Notes under the pieces: generated by a model
Databases searched by the model: none
Told to the model about the DNA's origin: nothing
Seen by the model: the letters and a program-made list of their open reading frames with translations, nothing else
DNA from: Anaerobacillus alkalilacustris
GTDB lineage: Bacteria; Bacillota; Bacilli; Bacillales; Anaerobacillaceae
Length of the DNA: 64,000 nucleotides
NCBI RefSeq assembly: GCF_001866005.1
Contig: NZ_MLQR01000004.1
Location: 62,001-126,000 of the forward strand
Direction of reading: 5' to 3'
Position numbers and translations under genes: made by a program
In this document: positions 24,165 to 53,396 of the stretch, in pieces
Layout: every line of letters starts with the position of its first letter
Numbering within the stretch: the stretch's first letter is position 1

Positions 24165-26801
24165 ATGAAACGATTAACTTCTGCTGAAGTAAGACAAATG
24201 TTTTTAGATTTTTTCAAAGAAAAGGGACATGCAGTTGAGCCAAGTGCTTCTTTAGTACCTCATGATGATCCGTCTTTACTATGGATTAATAGTGGCGTTG
24301 CTACATTAAAAAAATACTTTGACGGTAGAGTAATACCTGAGAACCCACGAATAACAAATGCCCAAAAATCAATTCGTACAAATGATATCGAAAATGTAGG
24401 AAAAACGGCTCGTCATCATACGTTTTTTGAAATGTTAGGTAACTTCTCAATTGGTGATTATTTTAAAAGGGAAGCTATCGAGTGGGCTTGGGAATTTTTG
24501 ACAAGCGAAAAGTGGATCGGTTTTGATCCAGAAAAACTCTCAGTTACAATTCATCCAGAAGATCATGAGGCTTTTGATATTTGGGTAAAGGAAATCGGCT
24601 TACCAGAGGAAAGAATTATTCGATTAGAAGGTAACTTTTGGGACATCGGTGAAGGACCTAGTGGGCCTAACACGGAGATTTTTTATGACCGTGGCGAAAA
24701 ATATGGAGCTGATGAAAATGACCCAGAACTTTACCCGGGTGGAGAAAATGAACGCTATTTAGAGGTTTGGAACTTAGTTTTTTCACAATTTAACCATAAT
24801 CCTGACGGTACTTATACTCCGCTTCCGAAAAAGAACATTGATACAGGAATGGGACTAGAAAGAATGGTATCAGTCATTCAAGATGTTCCAACAAACTTTG
24901 ATACTGATTTATTTGTTCCAATTATAAAAGTAACAGAAGAAATTTCAGGAGTTTCTTACGGAGGGGATAAAGAAATTGATGTTTCATTTAAAGTAATTGC
25001 AGATCATGTACGTACAGTAAGTTTTGCAATTTCTGATGGAGCATTGCCTTCAAATGAAGGGCGAGGGTATGTACTACGTCGTCTAATTCGTAGAGCGGTT
25101 CGATATGCGAAATTAATTAACATTGATCGACCATTTATGTATGAACTTGTTCCAGTTGTTGGAGAAGTTATGGTAGATTTCTACCCAGAAGTAAAAGATA
25201 AAACTGAATTTGTACAAAAAGTAATTAAAAATGAAGAAGAACGTTTCCATGAAACATTAAACGAAGGTTTAACTATTTTATCGAAAATCATTGAACAAGC
25301 GAAATCATCAAAAGAAGAAACGATTTCAGGTGTCGACGTATTCCGTTTATATGATACGTATGGCTTCCCAGTAGACTTAACAGAGGAGTATGTAGTTGAA
25401 GCGGGACTTTCAATTGATCGTGATGGTTTTGAAGTAGAAATGGAAAAGCAAAGAGAAAGAGCTAGGTCAGCTCGTCAATCTGAATCATCAATGCAATCAC
25501 AGGATCGTGTTTTAGGTGAACTTACAGTTACCAGTAAATTTGTAGGTTATGATAATCTCTCTTGTGATTCAACTATTAATGCAATAATCAAGGAAGCAGA
25601 ACTTGTAGAAGAAGCTACAAATGGAGAGGTAGTAAAGGTAATCGTTGATCAAACTCCATTTTACGCCGAAAGTGGTGGGCAAGTTTCAGATAAAGGAACA
25701 ATGAAAGCCGATGGTGTTCATATCGAGGTTGAAGATGTACAAAAAGCTCCTAACGGACAAAATATTCACACAGTTCGAATTGTTGAAGGGGTAATAAAAA
25801 GTGGTATGTCAGTAACGTCAACTGTTGAAGAGACAGAACGCAATGGAATTGTAAAAAACCATACTGCAACACATATTCTACATCGAGCACTTAAAGATAC
25901 TCTCGGAGAGCATGTTAACCAAGCTGGTTCTTTAGTTTCTGAAAATCGATTGCGCTTTGATTTTTCACATTTTGGTCAAGTAACTACCGAAGAAGTAACA
26001 AAAATTGAAGCTATTGTTAATGAAAAAATTTGGGATGCAATTAGCGTGAATATTTCTAATAAGAAGATTGATGAAGCAAAGGCAATGGGGGCAATGGCAC
26101 TTTTCGGCGAAAAGTATGGAGACGTTGTACGAGTTGTACAAGTTGGAGACTATAGTCTTGAGCTATGTGGTGGTTGTCACGTGAAAAATACAGCTGAAAT
26201 TGGTCTTTTCAAAATTGTATCAGAATCTGGCATAGGTGCCGGAATCCGACGTATTGAAGCTGTAACTGGTAAAGGCGCATATGAACATATGAACAGCCAA
26301 GTAGATATAGTGAAAGATGCAGCAAATCTTCTTAAGTCGAATATGAAAGATGTGCCTGAGAAGGTGAAACAATTACAAACCCAAATACGAAAATTGCAGC
26401 GCGAAAATGAATCGTTGGCAGCGAAGTTAGGAAATATTGAAGCAGGCGGTTTAGTAGATGATGTACTGAAGGTAAATGAAATTTCCGTTATTGCTAAACA
26501 AGTAAATGTAGCAGATATGGATAGTATTCGTGGGTTAGTAGATAATTTGAAAAATAAATTAGGTTCAGGTATTGTTGTGTTAGGTGCTGTCAATAATGAA
26601 AAAGTAAACATTGTTGCGGGCGTAACCAACGACTTAGTTAAAAAGGGTTATCATGCTGGTAAAATTGTCAAAGAAGTAGCTACTCGTTGTGGTGGTGGCG
26701 GTGGTGGTCGTCCTGATATGGCCCAAGCTGGAGGGAAGAATCCAGCTGAATTACAGTCAGCATTGGAATTTGTTCCAGAATTTCTTAAAACAATTTCCTA
26801 A
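24165..26801 (+). CDS. alaS: Alanyl-tRNA synthetase
   Basis: Alanyl-tRNA synthetase, 878 aa, the same length as in B. subtilis. The class II catalytic core is at the N-terminus ([36 protein letters not shown]). The editing domain has NHTATHILH and the distal zinc site CGGCHVKNT. The C-Ala domain ends with the glycine-rich [16 protein letters not shown]. The start is ATG at 24165, eight bases after AGGAGG; a TTG one codon earlier is unlikely. Controlled by the T-box upstream. Confidence 0.97.
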
Positions 26802-31054: not shown

Positions 31055-31984
31055 ATGAAAAAACCTGAAATACTCGTTACACCAACCAAAACTGATGATA
31101 TAAACCGGTTACTAAAGGTTGGAGCAACTGCTTTTTTAATTGGTGAGGAAGAATTTGGCTTACGTCTTGCTGGGGACTTTAAACGTGATGATATAAAAAA
31201 TGCTGTAGAAATAGCGCATAAACATGGAGCAAAGGTGTATGTGGCCATGAATGCTCTTTTTCATAATGATAAATTACCTCTGCTACCTGATTATATTTCT
31301 TTTTTAGCAGAAGCAAAAGTTGATGCAATTGTATTTGGAGATCCAGCAGTTTTAATGGCGGCACGTGAAGTAGCGCCTACCATGAAGCTTCACTGGAATA
31401 CAGAAACAACAGCAACAAATTATTTCTCAGCAAATTATTGGAACCGAAAAGGGGCAAAAAGAGCTGTTATGGCTCGCGAAATAAATATGGACTCAATCGT
31501 TGAAACAAAAGATCATGCTGAGGGTGAAATTGAAGTTCAAATTCACGGAATGACATGTATGTTTCAATCGAAACGTACGTTAATTGGGAACTATATGGAG
31601 TTCCAAGGTAAAGACTTGAAAGTTGAAGGGCGAAGTAAGGATCGATCATTGTTTTTACATGATCCGGAAAGAGATGCAAAATATCCAATTTTTGAAGACA
31701 AAAATGGAACACATATAATGAGTCCTAAAGATATTTGTATAATAGATGAATTAGAAGATATGCTTGATGCTGGTATTGATAGCTTTAAAATTGATGGGAT
31801 ATTAAAGAGCATAGATTACATTGAAAAGGTAACTGAATTATATAGTAAAGCTATTGATCTATATCTTGAAGATCCTGATGCTTATCAAGATCAAAAATTT
31901 CATTTTTATCAAGAAATTGAGAAAATCCAACCGGCTAATCGAAGGTTAGACACAGGATTTTTCTTTAAAGAGACTGTTTATTAA
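31055..31984 (+). CDS. trhP1: U32-family tRNA hydroxylation protein TrhP1 (YrrN)
   Basis: 309-aa protein of the peptidase U32 family. In B. subtilis, YrrN and YrrO (TrhP1/TrhP2) are required for 5-hydroxylation of U34 in tRNA, feeding TrmR. The TIM-barrel-like core is visible (LLKVGATAFLIGEEEFGLR, then YISFLAEAKVDAIVFGDP). In the signature region it reads IHGMTCMFQSKRTLIGN, with fewer cysteines than its partner, as is usual for YrrN. It lies between trmR and trhP2 with short gaps. Confidence 0.9.
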   Translation: MKKPEILVTPTKTDDINRLLKVGATAFLIGEEEFGLRLAGDFKRDDIKNAVEIAHKHGAKVYVAMNALFHNDKLPLLPDYISFLAEAKVDAIVFGDPAVLMAAREVAPTMKLHWNTETTATNYFSANYWNRKGAKRAVMAREINMDSIVETKDHAEGEIEVQIHGMTCMFQSKRTLIGNYMEFQGKDLKVEGRSKDRSLFLHDPERDAKYPIFEDKNGTHIMSPKDICIIDELEDMLDAGIDSFKIDGILKSIDYIEKVTELYSKAIDLYLEDPDAYQDQKFHFYQEIEKIQPANRRLDTGFFFKETVY

Positions 31985-31999
31985 AAGGAGGGGTGTAAG

Positions 32000-33280
32000 A
32001 TGGAACAAATATCAACAATAACTTCAGAAGGAAAACGTGTTATCGTTAAAAAGCCTGAGTTACTTATTCCAGCCGGAAGCTTAGAAAAGTTAAAAGTAGC
32101 TGTTCATTACGGTGCAGACGCAGTTTTTATAGGTGGTCAAGAATTTGGTTTGCGTTCAAATGCGGATAACTTTACGATTGAAGAGATGCAAGAAGGGGTA
32201 GAATTCGCTAATAAGTATGGAGCAAAAATTTACGTTACAACAAACATCTTCGCCCATAATGAAAATATGGATGGGTTAGAAGAATATTTACAAGATCTTC
32301 AAAAAGTAGGCGTTGCTGGTATAATTGTAGCTGACCCGTTAATTATAGAAACATGTAAAAAGGTAGCTCCTAAAGTAGAGGTCCATTTAAGTACACAACA
32401 GTCATTAACAAATTGGCAAGCGATAAAGTTTTGGAAGGAAGAAGGTCTTCATCGTGTTGTACTAGCAAGAGAAGTTGGACTTGAAGAAATGCTAGAAATG
32501 AAAAAGCAAGTAGATATTGAAATCGAAGCATTTATCCATGGGGCTATGTGTATTTCTTATTCTGGTAGATGTGTCCTAAGTAATCATATGACAGCACGTG
32601 ACTCTAATAGAGGAGGATGTTGCCAATCGTGTCGTTGGGATTATCACTTGTATGAACATGCGGATCAAGAGAGTTTCAATGAAAATCCATTGTATACCGA
32701 AGAACATTTACCTTTTTCAATGAGTCCGAAAGACTTAAATTTACTTGAAGGAATTCCGAAACTAATAGAAGCAGGAATAGACAGTTTGAAGGTTGAAGGT
32801 CGAATGAAATCTATTCATTACGTAGCAACGGTAACATCTGTTTATCGAAAAGTTATTGATGCTTATTGTGCTGATCCTGATAATTTTAAACTAGACCCAA
32901 AATGGATAGCAGAATTAGATAAATGTGCAAATCGTGATACAGCCCAATCGTTCTTTGAGAATGACACACCTACGTATAAAGAGCAATTGTTCGGAAGAAT
33001 TGATGGAAAGAAAACGACATATGATTTTGCTGGGTTGGTTTTAAATTATGACGCAGAAACAAAAATCGTTACATTACAACAGAGGAACTATTTTAAACCT
33101 GGTGATAAAGTAGAGTTTTTTGGACCTGAAATTGAAAACTTTGAAATTGAAGTTGGCGAAGTGTGGGATGCTGAAACTAATGAAGATTTAGATGCAGCTA
33201 GACATCCACTACAAATTGTTAAATTTAAAGTAGACAAGCCTTTATTTCCGAATAATATGATGCGAAAAGGAGTGCAATAA
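32000..33280 (+). CDS. trhP2: U32-family tRNA hydroxylation protein TrhP2 (YrrO)
   Basis: 426-aa peptidase U32 family protein, partner of TrhP1 in wobble-uridine hydroxylation (prephenate is the usual co-substrate in E. coli). The U32 signature [20 protein letters not shown] is complete, and GGCCQSCRW adds the Fe-S type cysteines. A C-terminal beta domain (about 340-426) follows. ATG is at 32000 behind AAAAGGAGGGG. Its TAA overlaps the udk ATG by one base. Confidence 0.92.
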
Positions 33281-37828: not shown

Positions 37829-38524
37829 ATGAGAATTGGGATTATAGGAGCAATGGATGAAGAAGTTGATCTTCTGAAAGAAAAGCTTGAAAATAAGAAA
37901 GAGGAAACAATTGCTGGATGTGTATATTTTACAGGGATGTTAAATGGAGTAGATGTTGTCCTTTTAAAATCAGGAATAGGAAAAGTAAATGCAGCAATAG
38001 GAACTACGCTCTTAATAGAGAAATTTTCTCCTAATTATGTAATAAATACAGGGTCAGCTGGTGGTTTTGAAGAAAGCTTAAAGGTTGGTGACATTGTCAT
38101 TTCAACAGAGGTTCGCTACAATGATGTTGACGCAACTGTTTTTGGATATGAGTTTGGGCAAGTACCAAGAATGCCAGCATATTATGAACCTAATGAGATG
38201 TTAATTTCTCTCGCTGAAAAGAGCGCTACAGAAGTCGGGGTTCATTCAGTTAAAGGCTTGATTTTGTCAGGAGATTCATTCATGAGTGATGAAAAACGAG
38301 TGATTGAGTTGAAAGAACTCTTTAAAAATTCTTATTGTTCAGAGATGGAAGCAGGTGCTATTGCGCAGGTATGTTACCAATTTGGTTGTCCATTTGTTAT
38401 TATTCGATCATTAAGTGATATAGCTGGAAGTAATGCGAAAATTTCTTATGATCAATTTTTAGAAACGGCAGCTGTTAATTCAGCTAAGCTTGTTTTATTA
38501 ATGCTTGAACATATAAAAAATTAA
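37829..38524 (+). CDS. mtnN: 5'-methylthioadenosine/S-adenosylhomocysteine nucleosidase
   Basis: 231-aa MTA/SAH nucleosidase, releasing adenine from by-products of SAM use. The family motifs [27 protein letters not shown] and the C-terminal SDIAGSNA with the catalytic Asp are all present, with [13 protein letters not shown] at 37829 follows AAAGGAAA. In B. subtilis it is in the yrrT-mtnN-mccAB-yrhC operon; mccA and mccB are not here. Confidence 0.95.
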
Positions 38525-39830: not shown

Positions 39831-39975
39831 GTGATAAATATTCTTTTGTTAGAAAATCGTAATTTTACTAGGTGTGAACATTTATCAAAAATTTATAAAA
39901 ATACTTGATATTATATACATGAAAAGAATATAATGACATTGAAAATTATTATCAATGATTGGAGGTAGGAATGAC

Positions 39976-40137
39976 ATGGTTTATCTTTTGATCAGTTTAA
40001 CAATAGTCGTATATTTTCTCATTGTCATCCGTATTTTTCATGGGATTAATGATGAAAAAACCATTTCTATCGTTTCCAAGGTCAAGAATTTTTTTAAAGC
40101 AAATAGTATGAATACGTTTAAAACGAATATAAAATAG
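39976..40137 (+). CDS. Small single-span membrane protein
   Basis: 53-aa hypothetical protein. The N-terminal helix (VYLLISLTIVVYFLIVIRIF) is followed by a basic cytoplasmic tail. The start is ATG at 39976 behind GGAGGTAGG. A terminator follows at once. I do not recognise a family. Confidence 0.55.
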   Translation: MVYLLISLTIVVYFLIVIRIFHGINDEKTISIVSKVKNFFKANSMNTFKTNIK

Positions 40138-40168: not shown

Positions 40169-40316
40169 GTTATTGTAAAAGTTACAACATTAGGATGAAC
40201 GAGGATGTAAAACAAATTCTTGATAGGTCATTTTTCTTGTGAATAACATAAAATGTTGGTACGATAACTTTAGAATCATTATTTTCTAATGGTTAAATTT
40301 TTTTAGAGGTGAAAAA

Positions 40317-40598
40317 ATGAAAATTACAGATGAAGCTAAGTCATTCATTCAAGGAATTCTTGATGAAAACAATGCAAAAGGGATTAAAGTAATTTTTGCA
40401 GGAATGGGCTGAGGTGGCCCTAAATTAGGACTGTCTCTGGATGAGGCAGCAGATGAGGACATTATTGAAACAATTAATGGAATTCAAGTTGCATTTGAAA
40501 AAAGTGTATTGGAACAAACGAAAGTATTAACCTTAGATTTCCAACAAACACCAGAAGGTTCTGGATTAGTTATGGTTGGAGTTAATGATTGTTGTTAA
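40317..40598 (+). CDS. HesB-like selenoprotein (in-frame TGA read as Sec)
   Basis: 93-residue HesB/IscA-related protein if TGA at 40410-40412 (codon 32) is read as selenocysteine. The codon sits in FAGMG-U-GGPKLGLSLDE, exactly where HesB-like proteins have their conserved Cys (GMGCGGP). A HesB-like (seleno)protein family with Sec at this Cys is established (the TIGR01911 type). Frame and coding quality continue on both sides, ending NDCC. A 7-bp stem-loop lies 18 nt after TGA. The start is ATG at 40317 behind AGAGGTG, and a terminator follows. The likely role is iron-sulfur or redox chemistry; the exact one is unknown. The sel genes are not in this window. The alternative is a Cys gene broken by one mutation, less likely because nothing else is damaged. 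Confidence 0.85.
40431..40449 (+). promoter_or_regulatory. Candidate bacterial SECIS hairpin
   Basis: CTGTCTC (40431-40437) and GAGGCAG (40443-40449) pair over seven positions (one G-U) around the loop TGGAT. The loop G lies about 27 nt beyond TGA, within the range usual for bacterial SECIS elements, which present a G in the apical loop to SelB. Confidence 0.6.
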
Positions 40599-40603
40599 AA
40601 ATA

Positions 40604-40633
40604 AAGCTAACCTCATGTGGGTTAGCTTTTTTT
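40604..40633 (+). terminator. Terminator of the selenoprotein gene
   Basis: AAAGCTAACC and GGTTAGCTTT arms followed by a T-run. Confidence 0.9.
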
Positions 40634-40637
40634 ACAG

Positions 40638-40900
40638 TATCAGAATTTATAAGTTTCTAACTTGGAAACTGTCTAGCGCAAGCAGCCTACGAGCTCGGTC
40701 ACTTCAGTCAAGTTTCTGACTTCAATGACTTTTGGATTCCTTCTTTGAAGATACTTCATGCTACTTTGCTCCTGCGATTACTCGTCGCACGGAAAACAAT
40801 TGCTCCTGCGATTACTCGTCGCACGGAAAACAATTGCTCTTGAGCGAACGGAGTGGCACAGGAGCAGCTGCTCGTGACCAAGGCGCCTCGCGCTTTTCTT
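40638..40900 (+). repeat. Modular intergenic repeat, copy 7
   Basis: Begins TATCAGAATTTATAAGTTTC five bases after the terminator T-run and ends AAGGCGCCTCGCGCTTTTCTT-like sequence. Its middle holds a 34-bp unit repeated in tandem (40767-40800, 40801-40834, then a partial third). Confidence 0.86.
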
Positions 40901-41615: not shown

Positions 41616-42323
41616 ATGAGTGTACATATCGGTGCAAATGAAAATGAAATAGCTGAATCAATGTTATTACCAGGAGATCCGTTACGAGCTAAATTTATTG
41701 CTGAGAAATTCCTTGAGAACCCAAAGTGCTACAATGAAGTACGTGGTATGCTTGGCTACACAGGTACTTATAAAGGAAAACGTGTTTCTGTTCAAGGGAC
41801 GGGTATGGGCATCCCTTCAATTTCAATTTATGCTCAAGAATTAATGCAAAGCTATGGAGTGAAAAATTTAATTCGGGTAGGAACATGTGGCGCAATTCAA
41901 GAAGATGTAAAGGTAAGAGATTTAATTATTGCTATGAGTGCCTCTACTGACTCAGCGGTAAATAAAATTCGTTTTAAAGGAATTGATTTTGCACCTACTG
42001 CAAATTTTGATTTATTAAAAACGGCTTATGATATTGCAGTGCAGAGAAACAAACAAGTTAACGTTGGTAGTGTATTTACAAGCGATACTTTTTACAACGA
42101 AGACAAAGAAGCTGTCCAAAATTGGGCTAAACATGGGATTTTAGCGCTTGAGATGGAAACAGCTGCCTTATATACACTCGCTGCAAAGTTTGGAGTAAAA
42201 GCACTTTCTATTTTGACAGTAAGTGACCATGTATTAACTGGGGAAGAAACGTCTGCAGAAGAACGTCAAAAAACATTTGGTGAAATGGTAGAAATCGCAT
42301 TAGACACAGCTATTCAATTTTAA
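41616..42323 (+). CDS. deoD: Purine-nucleoside phosphorylase DeoD
   Basis: 235-aa hexameric purine-nucleoside phosphorylase, splitting (deoxy)nucleosides to base and sugar phosphate. Family segments: [43 protein letters not shown], and EMETAALY, with Asp in [14 protein letters not shown] at 41616 follows AGGAGG. A single-gene unit with its own terminator. Confidence 0.96.
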
Positions 42324-47892: not shown

Positions 47893-49227
47893 ATGAGTAA
47901 AGTAAATACATTTTTAGAAAATAAAGTTATGCCAGTAGCAGGTAAGGTAGCAGGTCAACGTCACTTAAACGCCTTACGTGATGGAATTATATTAACAATG
48001 CCACTTATCATTGTCGGATCGCTGTTCCTAATTTTAGCGTTCTTACCAATCCCAGGTTATGCTGACTTTATGGCTGGAGTTTTCGGAGATCAGTGGATGT
48101 CAAAATTACTTTATCCTGTTGGAGTAACGTTTGACATTATGGCGTTAATTGCTTGCTTCGGTATCGCTTATCGACTTGCTGAAAGATATGGAATTGATGC
48201 TCTTTCCTCAGGGGCGATTGCCATTTCATCGTTCTTATTAGCAACACCATTTCAAATTTCATTTACACCAGAAGGTGCAGCTGAAGCTGTTCAAGTAGGT
48301 GGAGGTATTCCGTTAGCACTAATGGGAAGCCAAGGTTTATTCGTAGGGATGCTTATAGCTATATTTTCAACAGAAATTTATCGTTATATTGTATCAAAAG
48401 ATATCGTTATTAAAATGCCAGATGGTGTACCGCCAGCAGTAGCAAAATCATTCGTCGCGTTAATTCCAGGATTTGTTGTAATTTCATCAATTTGGATATT
48501 GAGAATTTTTGTAGAGATGATATCATTCGGAAGTATTCACGCACTTGTAACACAAATCGTAGGTGCACCACTTACTCTAGTAGGTGGAAGTTTAATTGGT
48601 AACTTATTCGTCGTATTCTTCGCAATGCTATTATGGAGTGTTGGATTACACGGAATGAACATTGTAAGTGGTGTAATGGCGCCAATTTGGATGGGTGCTA
48701 TGGATGAAAACCGTATTGCGTTCCAAGCAGGTGAAGAATTACCAAACATCTTTACAACACAATTTATTGAAATGATGAACGTTGGTGGAAGTGGAGCTAC
48801 CTTTGCCTTAGTAATCATGATGCTTTTATGGGCACGAAGCCAGCAGATCAAGCAATTAGGAAGGTTAGCAGCGGGACCAGGTGCATTTAATATTAACGAG
48901 CCGATTATTTTCGGTATGCCGATCGTAATGAACCCGCTATTAATTATTCCATTTATTATAACGCCGTTAGTAACAGTAATAGTAACATATTTTGCAATGT
49001 CGTTAGGTATTGTTGCGAAGCCAGCCGGTATCGCCGTTCCATGGACAACACCACCGATTTTACACGGATATTTAATCACAGGTGGAAATATCTCAGGAGC
49101 AATTATGCAAGCAGTTAACATTTTAATTGCCTTTGCGATTTGGTTCCCATTCTTCAAGATTTTTGATAAGCAAAAAGTAAGAGAAGAAGGTGGAGTTTCA
49201 ACACCTGATGAAAAAAAAGTAGGTTAA
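47893..49227 (+). CDS. licC: PTS beta-glucoside/cellobiose EIIC permease (copy 1)
   Basis: 444-aa EIIC of the cellobiose/lichenan type with about ten membrane segments, moving and delivering the disaccharide for phosphorylation. Typical are LNALRDGIILTMPLIIVGS near the start and GAFNINEPIIFGMPIVMNP with the substrate-site NEPIIFG. ATG at 47893 follows AGGAGTT. Its DNA is over 99% identical to the copy at 52062, with four amino-acid differences. Confidence 0.95.
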   Translation: MSKVNTFLENKVMPVAGKVAGQRHLNALRDGIILTMPLIIVGSLFLILAFLPIPGYADFMAGVFGDQWMSKLLYPVGVTFDIMALIACFGIAYRLAERYGIDALSSGAIAISSFLLATPFQISFTPEGAAEAVQVGGGIPLALMGSQGLFVGMLIAIFSTEIYRYIVSKDIVIKMPDGVPPAVAKSFVALIPGFVVISSIWILRIFVEMISFGSIHALVTQIVGAPLTLVGGSLIGNLFVVFFAMLLWSVGLHGMNIVSGVMAPIWMGAMDENRIAFQAGEELPNIFTTQFIEMMNVGGSGATFALVIMMLLWARSQQIKQLGRLAAGPGAFNINEPIIFGMPIVMNPLLIIPFIITPLVTVIVTYFAMSLGIVAKPAGIAVPWTTPPILHGYLITGGNISGAIMQAVNILIAFAIWFPFFKIFDKQKVREEGGVSTPDEKKVG

Positions 49228-49265
49228 CATAATAGTAAATTAATAGAAATCTAAAATAGTAACAT

Positions 49266-49292
49266 CCAGTGTGGGAAAGTTATCCACACTGG
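49266..49292 (+). other. Intercistronic hairpin EIIC-EIIA
   Basis: CCAGTGTGG (49266-49274) and CCACACTGG (49284-49292), no T-run. Probably an mRNA processing or stability stem. Confidence 0.6.
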
Positions 49293-49347
49293 GGATAATA
49301 AAAAAATATTAACGACACAAAAAGATATAGATTGGAGAGGAAATATT

Positions 49348-49674
49348 ATGATAAATGAAGAGTTGATTTTTCAATTAATACTACACGCAGGTAATGGGAA
49401 AAGTTCGGCTATGGAAGCTTTAGCTGCAGCGAAGCAAGGTGAGTTTGTAGAAGCAAGAGAAAAATTAAAACAAGCAGGGCAAGAGTTAAATGAAGCTCAT
49501 CATATACAAACATCTCTTATTCAAGGTGAAATAAGAGGAGAAAAAACAGAAATTTCATTGTTAATGATTCATGCACAAGACCACTTAATGAATGCGATCA
49601 CTGTAAAAGATTTAGCAGCAGAAATTATTGACTTAAATGAGCTTGTGAAATCTAATGGGGGTGTAAGATCTTGA
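49348..49674 (+). CDS. licA: PTS lactose/cellobiose-type EIIA component
   Basis: 108-aa trimeric helical EIIA that receives phosphate from HPr. The phosphorylated His is in [13 protein letters not shown] near residue 78, the usual lactose-family site. ATG at 49348 follows GGAGAGG. The stop overlaps the next gene's TTG start. This is the only EIIA in the region, so it probably serves both EIIB-EIIC pairs. Confidence 0.93.
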
Positions 49675-51005
49675 GTAATACAAAAGGATTAAAAATCGCA
49701 ACAATTGGTGGGGGCTCTAGCTACACACCAGAACTAGTAGAAGGTTTTATTAAACGTTATGATGAACTACCAATTCGTGAGCTTTGGTTAGTAGATATTG
49801 AAGCTGGTAAAGAGAAAATGGAGATTGTTGGGAACTTAGCGAAACGTATGATTGAAAAAGCAGGTTTACCAATTGACGTACATTTGACATTAGATCGTCG
49901 TGCCGCGTTAAAAGATGCTGACTTCGTTACAACACAATTCCGTGTCGGCTTATTAGAAGCACGGGCAAAAGATGAAAGAATTCCTTTAAAATATGGCGTT
50001 CTTGGTCAAGAAACAAATGGTCCTGGTGGATTATTTAAAGGGTTACGTACAATCCCTGTTATTTTAGATATTTGTAAAGATATCGAAGAGTTATGCCCAA
50101 ATGCATGGTTGATTAATTTTACAAACCCTGCTGGTATGGTAACTGAAGCTGTTCTTCGTTACTCAAATATTAAAAAAGTTGTAGGTTTATGTAACGTACC
50201 TATCGGAATTGAAATGGGAATTGCGAAACTGTTAGATGTTGATCATTCTCGCATCCGTATTGATTTCGCTGGATTAAACCATATGGTTTACGGATTAGAT
50301 GTATATGTTGATGGCGTAAGTGTGAAAGATGAAGTCATTGAAAAGTTAACAGATCCTGCTAACAGCAGTTTCGTTAAAAATATTGAAGGGATTGGTTGGG
50401 AGCCAGAATTCATTAAAGCACTTGGCGTACTAACTTGCCCTTACCATATGTACTATTACAAAACGAGACAAATGCTTGAAAAAGACATGAAAAACGCTGA
50501 TGGCGAAGGAACTCGTGCTGAAGTTGTGCAAAAATTAGAGAAAGAATTATTCGAACTTTACAAAGATCCGAATTTAGCTATTAAACCACCTCAACTTGAA
50601 AAGCGTGGTGGAGCTTACTATTCTGATGCAGCTGTACGTTTAATTACGTCAATTTATACGGACAAACGTGACATTCAACCGGTTAACACGATTAACAACG
50701 GCGCGATTGCTAGTATTCCTGCAGATTCTGCAGTTGAAGTTAGCTGTGTCATCACAAAAGACGGTCCAAAACCTATTTCCATGGGTGACCTTCCAGTTCC
50801 AGTTCGCGGACTTGTTCAACAGATTAAATCATTTGAGCGTATTGGAGCAGAAGCTGCAGTAACTGGAGACTACAACAAAGCCGTTTTAGCAATGACAATT
50901 AATCCACTTAGCCCATCTGATACGATTTCAAAACAAATCGTCGATGAAATGATGGAAGCTCACAAAGAGCATTTACCACAATTCTTTAAAAAAATTGAAG
51001 CTTAA
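49671..51005 (+). CDS. licH: 6-phospho-beta-glucosidase, GH4 family
   Basis: 444-aa NAD+- and Mn2+-dependent glycosidase of family GH4, splitting the phosphorylated beta-glucoside inside the cell. The NAD-binding [14 protein letters not shown] is at the N-terminus. [13 protein letters not shown] and the metal-site Cys in [10 protein letters not shown] (with His in [10 protein letters not shown]) are present. TTG at 49671 overlaps the licA stop by four bases, with GGGGGTG upstream. A terminator follows. Confidence 0.94.
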
Positions 51006-51007
51006 AA

Positions 51008-51046
51008 AAATGGTTCTAGTGAAAATTCACTAGAACCATTTTTTTA
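51008..51046 (+). terminator. Terminator of the first PTS operon
   Basis: ATGGTTCTAGTGAA and TTCACTAGAACCAT pair, followed by a T-run. The stem sequence is shared with the terminator at 53407. Confidence 0.92.
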
Positions 51047-51214
51047 AGTTGATAAGAAGACCTCACATTGTACCTAGCACAGTTAACTCGAATTGAAAAG
51101 ATCAGATTCTAGCCAAAAAGGTCTAAGAGCTGAATGCAGTGTATTTGTTTATTTCTAAGGATAAAATTAACTACACCTTTCTCTTCAGTAAGAATGCATA
51201 AGGCATAAATTTCA

Positions 51215-51395
51215 ATTCGATAGCATGGCGTCCTACCCAAGGCCATCGTCTATTCAACGCGACTCAAGCTACCGAGCTTAACTTTCTACATGAAATACAT
51301 CTCTGAATAACTTCCAGCTGCTTTATCCTGGGATTACCCGTCCCAAAAAATGTTTTGAGGAAGTGAACGTCGACCTATGCTAAAAGACCAACAGA
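51215..51395 (+). repeat. Degenerate copy of the modular repeat (copy 9)
   Basis: Keeps GGCGTCCTACCCAAGGCCATCG, ACATCTCTGAATAACTTC, GCTGCTTTATCCTGGGATTAC and TTTTGAGGAAG in the order of the full repeat, with many changes and no clear ends. It lies between the two PTS modules, as copy 8 lies before the first. Confidence 0.55.
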
Positions 51396-51417
51396 ATATT
51401 GTAAGCGTAATCAACCT

Positions 51418-51466
51418 TTTCCGTTACCTAAAGGAAAAAAGTTAAGTTTATATGAAAGCGCTTTTA
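51418..51466 (+). promoter_or_regulatory. Operator region of the second PTS operon
   Basis: TTTCCGTT (51418-51425) and AAAGGAAA (51430-51437) form the same 8-4-8 palindrome as upstream of the first operon, with one mismatch. TGAAAGCGCTTTTA at 51453 matches the cre consensus at 13 of 14 positions. The palindrome-to-cre distance (15 bases) is the same as in the first operon. Confidence 0.68.
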
Positions 51467-51626
51467 CTGTAAGATGTAATTAAGCAACAGGAAACAAAAA
51501 TGAAAGAAAAAACATGTATGGTTTGAAAATATATTCTACATAATTTTCATTCTCTAAGTTGAAAGTTGCTTGCTAATTATTTTTTATGAAATTATTTATA
51601 TAACTATTACTTAGGAGGAATTTAGA

Positions 51627-51932
51627 ATGAATATTTTATTATGTTGTGCAGCAGGAATGTCTACGAGTTTACTAGTTACAAAAATGGAAAAAGCAGCGGC
51701 TGAACAAGGTTTAGAAACAAAAATTTGGGCAGTAAGCGCAGATACTGTACCAAACGAAATTGATAAAGCAGATATATTATTGTTGGGGCCTCAAGTTCGT
51801 TACCTTTTAAACCAAATGAAAAAATATGAAACTGAGAAAAACATTCCAGTTGATGTTATTAACCCAGTTCATTATGGAACTTGTAACGGTGCGGAAGTAA
51901 TAAAATCAGTACAACAACTTTTAGCAAAATAA
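51627..51932 (+). CDS. PTS beta-glucoside/cellobiose EIIB component (copy 2)
   Basis: 101-aa EIIB, same family as the protein at 47457, differing by three residues (Val/Ala, Val/Ile and Thr/Ala) while the DNA differs at about 22 of 306 positions. The active-site [11 protein letters not shown] is unchanged. ATG at 51627 follows AGGAGG. No EIIA follows in this module. Confidence 0.92.
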
Positions 51933-51941
51933 ATAAAAAAG

Positions 51942-51978
51942 ACTCCTTGGTGTAGGCGGCAACCTTAACCCAAGGAGT
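51942..51978 (+). other. Intercistronic hairpin EIIB-EIIC (copy 2)
   Basis: ACTCCTTGG (51942-51950) and CCAAGGAGT (51970-51978). It keeps the stem of the 47774 hairpin although the loop and flanks differ, which suggests selection on the structure. Confidence 0.6.
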
Positions 51979-52061
51979 TCCAAATCTAAGAACAAGATTT
52001 TAGCGTAATTATATCATAATTTTTATTAAATACCAATACAAAATGGTAGGAGTTGAACTAA

Positions 52062-53396
52062 ATGAGTAAAGTAAATACATTTTTAGAAAATAAAGTTATG
52101 CCAGTAGCAGGTAAGGTAGCAGGTCAACGTCACTTAAACGCCTTACGTGATGGAATTATATTAACAATGCCACTTATCATTGTCGGATCGCTGTTCCTAA
52201 TTTTAGCGTTCTTACCAATCCCAGGTTATGCTGACTTTATGGCTGGAGTTTTCGGAGATCAGTGGATGTCAAAATTACTTTATCCTGTTGGAGTAACGTT
52301 TGACATTATGGCGTTAATTGCTTGCTTCGGTATCGCTTATCGACTTGCTGAAAGATATGGAATTGATGCTCTTTCCTCAGGGGCGATTGCCATTTCATCG
52401 TTCTTATTAGCAACACCATTTCAAATTTTATTTACACCAGAAGGTGCAGCTGAAGCTGTTCAAGTAGGTGGAGGTATTCCGTTAGCACTAATGGGAAGCC
52501 AAGGTTTATTCGTAGGGATGCTTATAGCTATATTTTCAACAGAAATTTATCGTTATATTGTATCAAAAGATATCGTTATTAAAATGCCAGATGGTGTACC
52601 GCCAGCAGTAGCAAAATCATTCGTCGCGTTAATTCCAGGATTTGTTGTAATTTCATCAATTTGGATATTGAGAATTTTTGTAGAGATGACATCATTCGGA
52701 AGTATTCACGCACTTGTAACACAAATCGTAGGTGCACCACTTACTCTAGTAGGTGGAAGTTTAATTGGTAACTTATTCGGCGTATTCTTCGCAATGCTAT
52801 TATGGAGTGTTGGATTACACGGAATGAACATTGTAAGTGGTGTAATGGCGCCAATTTGGATGGGTGCTATGGATGAAAACCGTATTGCGTTCCAAGCAGG
52901 TGAAGAATTACCAAACATCTTTACAACACAATTTATTGAAATGATGAACGTTGGTGGAAGTGGAGCTACCTTTGCCTTAGTAATCATGATGCTTTTATGG
53001 GCACGAAGCCAGCAGATCAAGCAATTAGGAAGGTTAGCAGCGGGACCAGGTGCATTTAATATTAACGAGCCGATTATTTTCGGTATGCCGATCGTAATGA
53101 ACCCGCTATTAATTATTCCATTTATTATAACGCCGTTAGTAACAGTAATAGTAACATATTTTGCAATGTCGTTAGGTATTGTTGCGAAGCCAGCCGGTAT
53201 CGCCGTTCCATGGACAACACCACCGATTTTACACGGATATTTAATCACAGGTGGAAATATCTCAGGAGCAATTATGCAAGCAGTTAACATTTTAATTGCC
53301 TTTGCGATTTGGTTCCCATTCTTCAAGATTTTTGATAAGCAAAAAGTAAGAGAAGAAGGTGGAGTTTCAACACCTGATGAAACGAAAGTAGGTTAA
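52062..53396 (+). CDS. PTS beta-glucoside/cellobiose EIIC permease (copy 2)
   Basis: 444-aa EIIC, almost identical to the protein at 47893: the differences are Ser to Leu (QIS/QIL), Ile to Thr (EMIS/EMTS), Val to Gly (LFVV/LFGV) and Lys to Thr near the end. All membrane segments and the NEPIIFG motif are kept. Identity begins at the shared ribosome-binding site and stops at the stop codon. With so few changes it probably has the same sugar range. Confidence 0.94.
   Translation: MSKVNTFLENKVMPVAGKVAGQRHLNALRDGIILTMPLIIVGSLFLILAFLPIPGYADFMAGVFGDQWMSKLLYPVGVTFDIMALIACFGIAYRLAERYGIDALSSGAIAISSFLLATPFQILFTPEGAAEAVQVGGGIPLALMGSQGLFVGMLIAIFSTEIYRYIVSKDIVIKMPDGVPPAVAKSFVALIPGFVVISSIWILRIFVEMTSFGSIHALVTQIVGAPLTLVGGSLIGNLFGVFFAMLLWSVGLHGMNIVSGVMAPIWMGAMDENRIAFQAGEELPNIFTTQFIEMMNVGGSGATFALVIMMLLWARSQQIKQLGRLAAGPGAFNINEPIIFGMPIVMNPLLIIPFIITPLVTVIVTYFAMSLGIVAKPAGIAVPWTTPPILHGYLITGGNISGAIMQAVNILIAFAIWFPFFKIFDKQKVREEGGVSTPDETKVG

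Follow-up and report, generated by a model that had tools for sequence, protein, structure and literature searches.

A probable HesB-like selenoprotein gene in Anaerobacillus alkalilacustris, with a covarying SECIS hairpin and relatives in arsenic-resistance operons

A small gene of Anaerobacillus alkalilacustris is very probably a functional selenoprotein gene, in which selenocysteine (Sec, U) would be inserted at a UGA in codon 32. The gene lies at 40317-40598 of the window that we analysed, a stretch of 64,000 nucleotides (G000:C4:62001-126000). Its frame runs from an ATG at 40317 to a TAA at 40596-40598 and its single interruption is the TGA at codon 32. Translated through that codon, the full product is MKITDEAKSFIQGILDENNAKGIKVIFAGMG-U-GGPKLGLSLDEAADEDIIETINGIQVAFEKSVLEQTKVLTLDFQQTPEGSGLVMVGVNDCC; it begins MKITDEAK, carries the UxGP motif of HesB-like selenoproteins as GMG-U-GGP and ends NDCC. 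A terminator follows directly 3' of the TAA, and the gene stands as a separate unit, alone between terminators. A sequence-only reading of this DNA had already reported the start codon, the ribosome-binding site, the lone TGA, a 7-bp hairpin 18 nt beyond it and the terminator; its coordinates were exact when checked base for base, re-translation gave the same frame, and the hairpin was located as given in Table 1.

Table 1. Features at and around the HesB-like gene, in window coordinates
Feature	Position	Strand	Remarks
Conserved small gene, 60 aa, upstream	39955..40137	+	Syntenic ORF, 58-74% identical, in each of the six further genus genomes
Ribosome-binding site GAGGTG	40306..40311	+	5 nt before the ATG; read directly
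HesB/IscA-like selenoprotein gene (probable)	40317..40598	+	93 residues, Sec at 32, stop TAA; translation with TGA = U
In-frame TGA within GMG-U-GGP, codon 32, predicted to be read as Sec	40410..40412	+	Cys in the Caldalkalibacillus homologue
Predicted SECIS hairpin	40431..40449	+	Stem 40431-40437/40443-40449, loop UGGAU 40438-40442; from fold, covariation and absence from Cys homologues
Codons for the C-terminal Cys92-Cys93 pair	40590..40595	+	Protein alignment: Cys93 invariant, Cys92 at least 90%
Intrinsic terminator, hairpin and T-run	40603..40632	+	Fold -14 kcal/mol, z -5.0
deoD-type purine nucleoside phosphorylase gene, the first large one downstream	41616..42323	+	PF01048

The genes that define the Sec-decoding trait are all found in the host genome. 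Contig C29 carries selA (25281-26663, 554.3 bits), selB (31134-33005, 349.6 bits, over its cut-off) and a tRNA-Sec (38038-38130, 58.6 bits, over the gathering threshold, with the anticodon tca according to ARAGORN). Between selA and selB sits selD (L028 5424-6476, forward strand), which has an in-frame TGA of its own (SKGG-U-GCK) and adjoins a SelW-like frame with the motif CMQ-U (L028 4978-5322, reverse strand), both names being read by eye. A further TGA lies in the formate dehydrogenase FdhA, in CNRT-U-HAPS (L071). Taken together, the decoding genes and the additional TGA genes indicate that the host very probably uses selenocysteine, with at least four predicted selenoproteins. The sequence-only reading had proposed as much, and had named a genome devoid of selB or selC as grounds for giving the proposal up; both selB and the tRNA-Sec are present.

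With these decoding parts in the genome, we propose that SelB carrying Sec-tRNA-Sec would bind the hairpin downstream of the UGA, that selenocysteine would be inserted at codon 32 and that the ribosome would thus continue to yield a 93-residue protein of the HesB/IscA fold. The hairpin, CUGUCUC-UGGAU-GAGGCAG, has 7 bp and begins 18 nt past the TGA. It folds at -9.1 kcal/mol, a value that 0 of 200 dinucleotide shuffles match (z -3.6), and is less striking when judged alone in a longer context (z -1.1 to -1.5). Bacterial SECIS elements are described as having a loop of 3-9 nt with a G within its first two positions, a stem of 4-16 bp, a UGA-to-loop distance of 16-37 nt and a folding energy of at most -7.5 kcal/mol (PMC13188914). 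Here the loop has 5 nt with G in second place, the stem 7 bp and the UGA-to-loop distance 25 nt, and the energy is likewise within bounds.

What makes the predicted SECIS hairpin convincing is the comparison between species rather than its lone fold energy. The comparison took in 35 TGA sequences (genus, order, Ammoniphilus and Thalassobacillus). Of their stem cells 95.2% are paired; shuffles reach 85.2% and slid registers 29-54%. Both sides have changed at four of the six stem pairs, and the covariation score of 0.298 (against 0.114) is reached by none of 500 shuffles. The stems take such different forms as GUCUC/GAGGC, GGCUC/GAGCC, GGUUC/GAACC, GGCGC/GCGCC and CACUC/GAGUG, while the loop stays UGGAU, with UGGAA and UGGAC as variants. 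Some of this covariation could follow amino-acid changes, because the stem codons also encode protein (SLDEA, ALDEP, VLDEP, LTLDEC). Eight Cys homologues of similar protein sequence serve as a control, and in these merely one or two of the six pairs form. Covariation and absence from the Cys homologues thus rule out a chance hairpin.

HesB-like selenoproteins are a known family of bacteria and archaea (PMC1794560; PMC13188914), counted at 90 proteins in 86 organisms (PMC5029168). That such a family has Sec at the Cys of this motif had been stated in the sequence-only reading, and the same three papers list the family. The window gene adds a member to this known kind; it is not a new system. 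Like the curated HesB-like selenoproteins (TIGR01911; NF038090, IscA_HesB_Se), its product has Sec at UxGP, the HesB fold and a SECIS directly downstream. These are also its two best NCBIfam models (NF038090, 7e-15; TIGR01911, 2e-11). It differs from them in that it falls under both curated cut-offs (55.1 of 85 bits and 44.4 of 66.35 bits), ends in DCC and belongs to a branch that spans many families of one order. The scores therefore place it in a divergent branch of the HesB-like selenoproteins and not as a certified member of a curated subfamily. A Pfam search of the protein returned nothing at E 0.001.

The AlphaFold2 model (pLDDT 89.8) finds its best PDB matches in IscA (1r94, TM 0.82; 1s98, TM 0.81), followed by HI1723 and then by DsrR and SufA, which assigns the protein to the HesB/IscA fold. 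Among 30 aligned proteins Sec/Cys32, Pro35, Asp48, Asn54 and Cys93 are invariant and Cys92 is nearly so. In the predicted protein Sec32 would occupy the place of the first ligand Cys of A-type Fe-S carriers, and the conserved Cys92-Cys93, its probable partners judging from the alignment, would supply further thiols. Sec32 and Cys92-Cys93 are a plausible three-ligand or redox site; residues 91-93, the Cys pair among them, are poorly modelled (pLDDT < 50). We tentatively favour a small thiol/selenol protein, which may serve either to bind or buffer soft metals, metalloids or Fe-S clusters, or to carry out redox chemistry with a Sec-Cys pair.

Two narrower roles have to be weighed against this one. 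The protein could be an A-type Fe-S carrier of the IscA/SufA/ErpA type with Sec in place of the first ligand Cys, a possible role that we nonetheless regard as doubtful. The two kinds share the fold (1r94, 1s98, 2d2a) and the first-ligand position, TIGR00049 is matched by 30 of 30 members, and the C-terminal CC lies close to the position of the carriers' CxC ligand pair. The C-terminal motif of IscA is CGC, however, whereas this protein ends in DCC and so has CC for CxC, besides Sec for Cys; identity to the carriers is about 13-24%, its TIGR00049 score is 32.7 against a cut-off of 58.8, and no suf or isc genes were found among the neighbours examined. Alternatively, the protein could act through protein-protein contacts, as PdhI/YneR does in B. 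subtilis, where this protein with a HesB fold inhibits pyruvate dehydrogenase (PDH) through its Y31 and is reported to block the E1 active site (PMC10090944). The YneR model is among the structural matches (9a4q, E 0.014), yet the match is weak (TM 0.56), and the strictly conserved Sec/Cys with its C-terminal Cys pair suggests thiol/selenol chemistry, which leaves the regulator reading improbable.

Every one of the seven genus genomes, which in our sample make up the whole family, carries an orthologue with TGA at this codon; the six other proteins are 76-84% identical to that of the window. Three of the seven genomes also have a paralogue in which GMGUGGP recurs. A diverged paralogue in G003 (NSNUGTS; L026, G003:C1:4648938-4649168) also keeps the TGA, and its hairpin, CACUC-UGGAC-GAGUG, is paired on a partly different stem. 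The sequence-only reading had suggested comparing homologues at codon 32. A TGA occupies the matching codon in the 37 homologues whose sequence was read, with TGA-bearing homologues coming from some 16 families of the order (labels counted by hand), while the Caldalkalibacillus homologue (L030, 53% identical) has Cys in the same motif, GMGCGGP. An aligned Cys homologue of this kind is a general criterion for bacterial selenoproteins. In a tree of 48 sequences, with low support for either order of Cys and Sec, the Sec/Cys labels require three changes.

Of the 397 genomes that we took from the order, selA exceeds its cut-off in 181. Its presence follows the TGA: among the matches listed, to about E 1e-17 and with the TGA position read in 37 copies, selA is found in 86 of 87 genomes with a TGA copy against 9 of 50 with solely stop-free (Cys) copies. 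The Fisher p is about 6e-25, an optimistic value since the genomes are related. The HesB-like branch is widespread in bacilli. Because selenocysteine use is common in the order, the earlier remark that few selenoproteins are described in aerobic Bacillaceae carries little weight. In the exception, G384, the TGA copy (L066, G384:C15:469068-469346) keeps its hairpin intact; in the 20-contig draft of this genome, 99% complete, selA is absent and neither selB nor a tRNA-Sec scores over the cut-off. A gap in the assembly or a recent loss of the trait are possible explanations.

In bacteria the decoding of UGA competes with termination. The TGA might therefore mainly terminate, giving a 31-residue peptide with selenium-dependent read-through, and the gene might chiefly be a selenium-responsive switch; the retention of a TGA copy in G384 without detectable machinery would suit such a gene. 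Purifying conservation extends through the whole 3' part, including Cys92-Cys93, and the short product would be without most of the fold, both of which make a switch very unlikely. A sequencing error or young nonsense mutation, in a pseudogene or a truly Cys-encoding gene, would fit a lone TGA in an otherwise open frame of a 50-contig draft, and is ruled out by the six independent genus assemblies that share the TGA, by its recurrence across families of the order and by the covarying hairpin.

The surroundings of the window gene had been described as sulfur-rich, a description that does not hold up: the only sulfur-metabolism genes nearby are mtnN (37829) and yrhC (38707), the remainder of a methionine-to-cysteine operon known from B. 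subtilis, and these are set apart from the HesB-like gene, a unit of its own, by an HPr-like gene and a small gene. The deoD neighbour is syntenic, at about 90% identity, in four other genus genomes. Two further observations concern the window at large. A dispersed repeat, CTCCTGCGATTACTCGTCGCACGG, occurs at 40769-40826 and at 2877, 11313, 14386, 28154, 39581 and 47138, often as 34-bp-spaced pairs, and the window has 10 such places when up to 3 differences are allowed. Exact copies of a 25-base form of the repeat number 19 in the genome and 2 in one congener; the other five have none. Within 47893-53396, three open frames (47893, 49671, 52062) each measure exactly 444 aa; the first encodes a PTS EIIC permease, and the three are possibly tandem duplicates.

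Relatives of the gene, both Cys and Sec, lie in arsenic-resistance clusters with arsD-arsA, arsB-arsC, arsI, trxB or arsR (L031-L037, L030, L048, L066, L076, L077), the ars names in unannotated loci being read by eye from translations. Cys homologues of Neobacillus, Niallia, Metabacillus, Gracilibacillus and Bacillus spp. are found downstream of arsA, most with a preceding arsD, and the Caldalkalibacillus homologue comes after arsB-arsC. On an Alicyclobacillus plasmid a Cys copy annotated as 'adhesin' follows arsC-arsI-trxB; on a Cytobacillus plasmid a TGA copy lies between trxB and arsR/arsI, and the PLSDB table, itself incomplete, gives no gene for it. The chromosomal Sec copies of G154 and G384 follow arsC, with an arsI-like gene intervening in G384. 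A HesB-like protein of Bacilli, orf7, is known from the ars1 operon of Bacillus sp. CDB3, and its gene order, arsD-arsA-...-HesB, recurs for the Cys homologues L031-L037 (PMC4562236). Unlike orf7 as described there, the window gene has Sec and stands alone outside an ars operon; in fact, the majority of Sec copies with flanks read, this one included, have no ars genes adjacent. The Sec copy of Thalassobacillus pellis (L038 1-2277) is near CsoR-like and copper P-type ATPase-like genes, by eye another soft-metal neighbourhood.

The position of relatives inside arsenic-resistance operons is why we favour a soft-metal or metalloid reading, held here by analogy since the window copy lies outside any such operon. 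We can envision, as a speculation more likely wrong than right, that the Sec/Cys branch of Bacilli is a distinct soft-metal/metalloid family, in which Sec32 and Cys92-Cys93 would together make a site offering three ligands to As(III) or a similar ion, used by the Cys and Sec members of ars operons and, against metalloid or selenium-related stress, by the stand-alone Sec members.

For genome annotation, the case means that a very probable selenoprotein can be missed by default gene calling, and that curated models score this branch below their cut-offs although at least 87 of the 397 genomes from the order carry a TGA copy. For the biology of the branch, the most interesting lead lies in the ars operons: Cys and Sec versions turn up there repeatedly, which offers a testable approach to the function of HesB-like selenoproteins.
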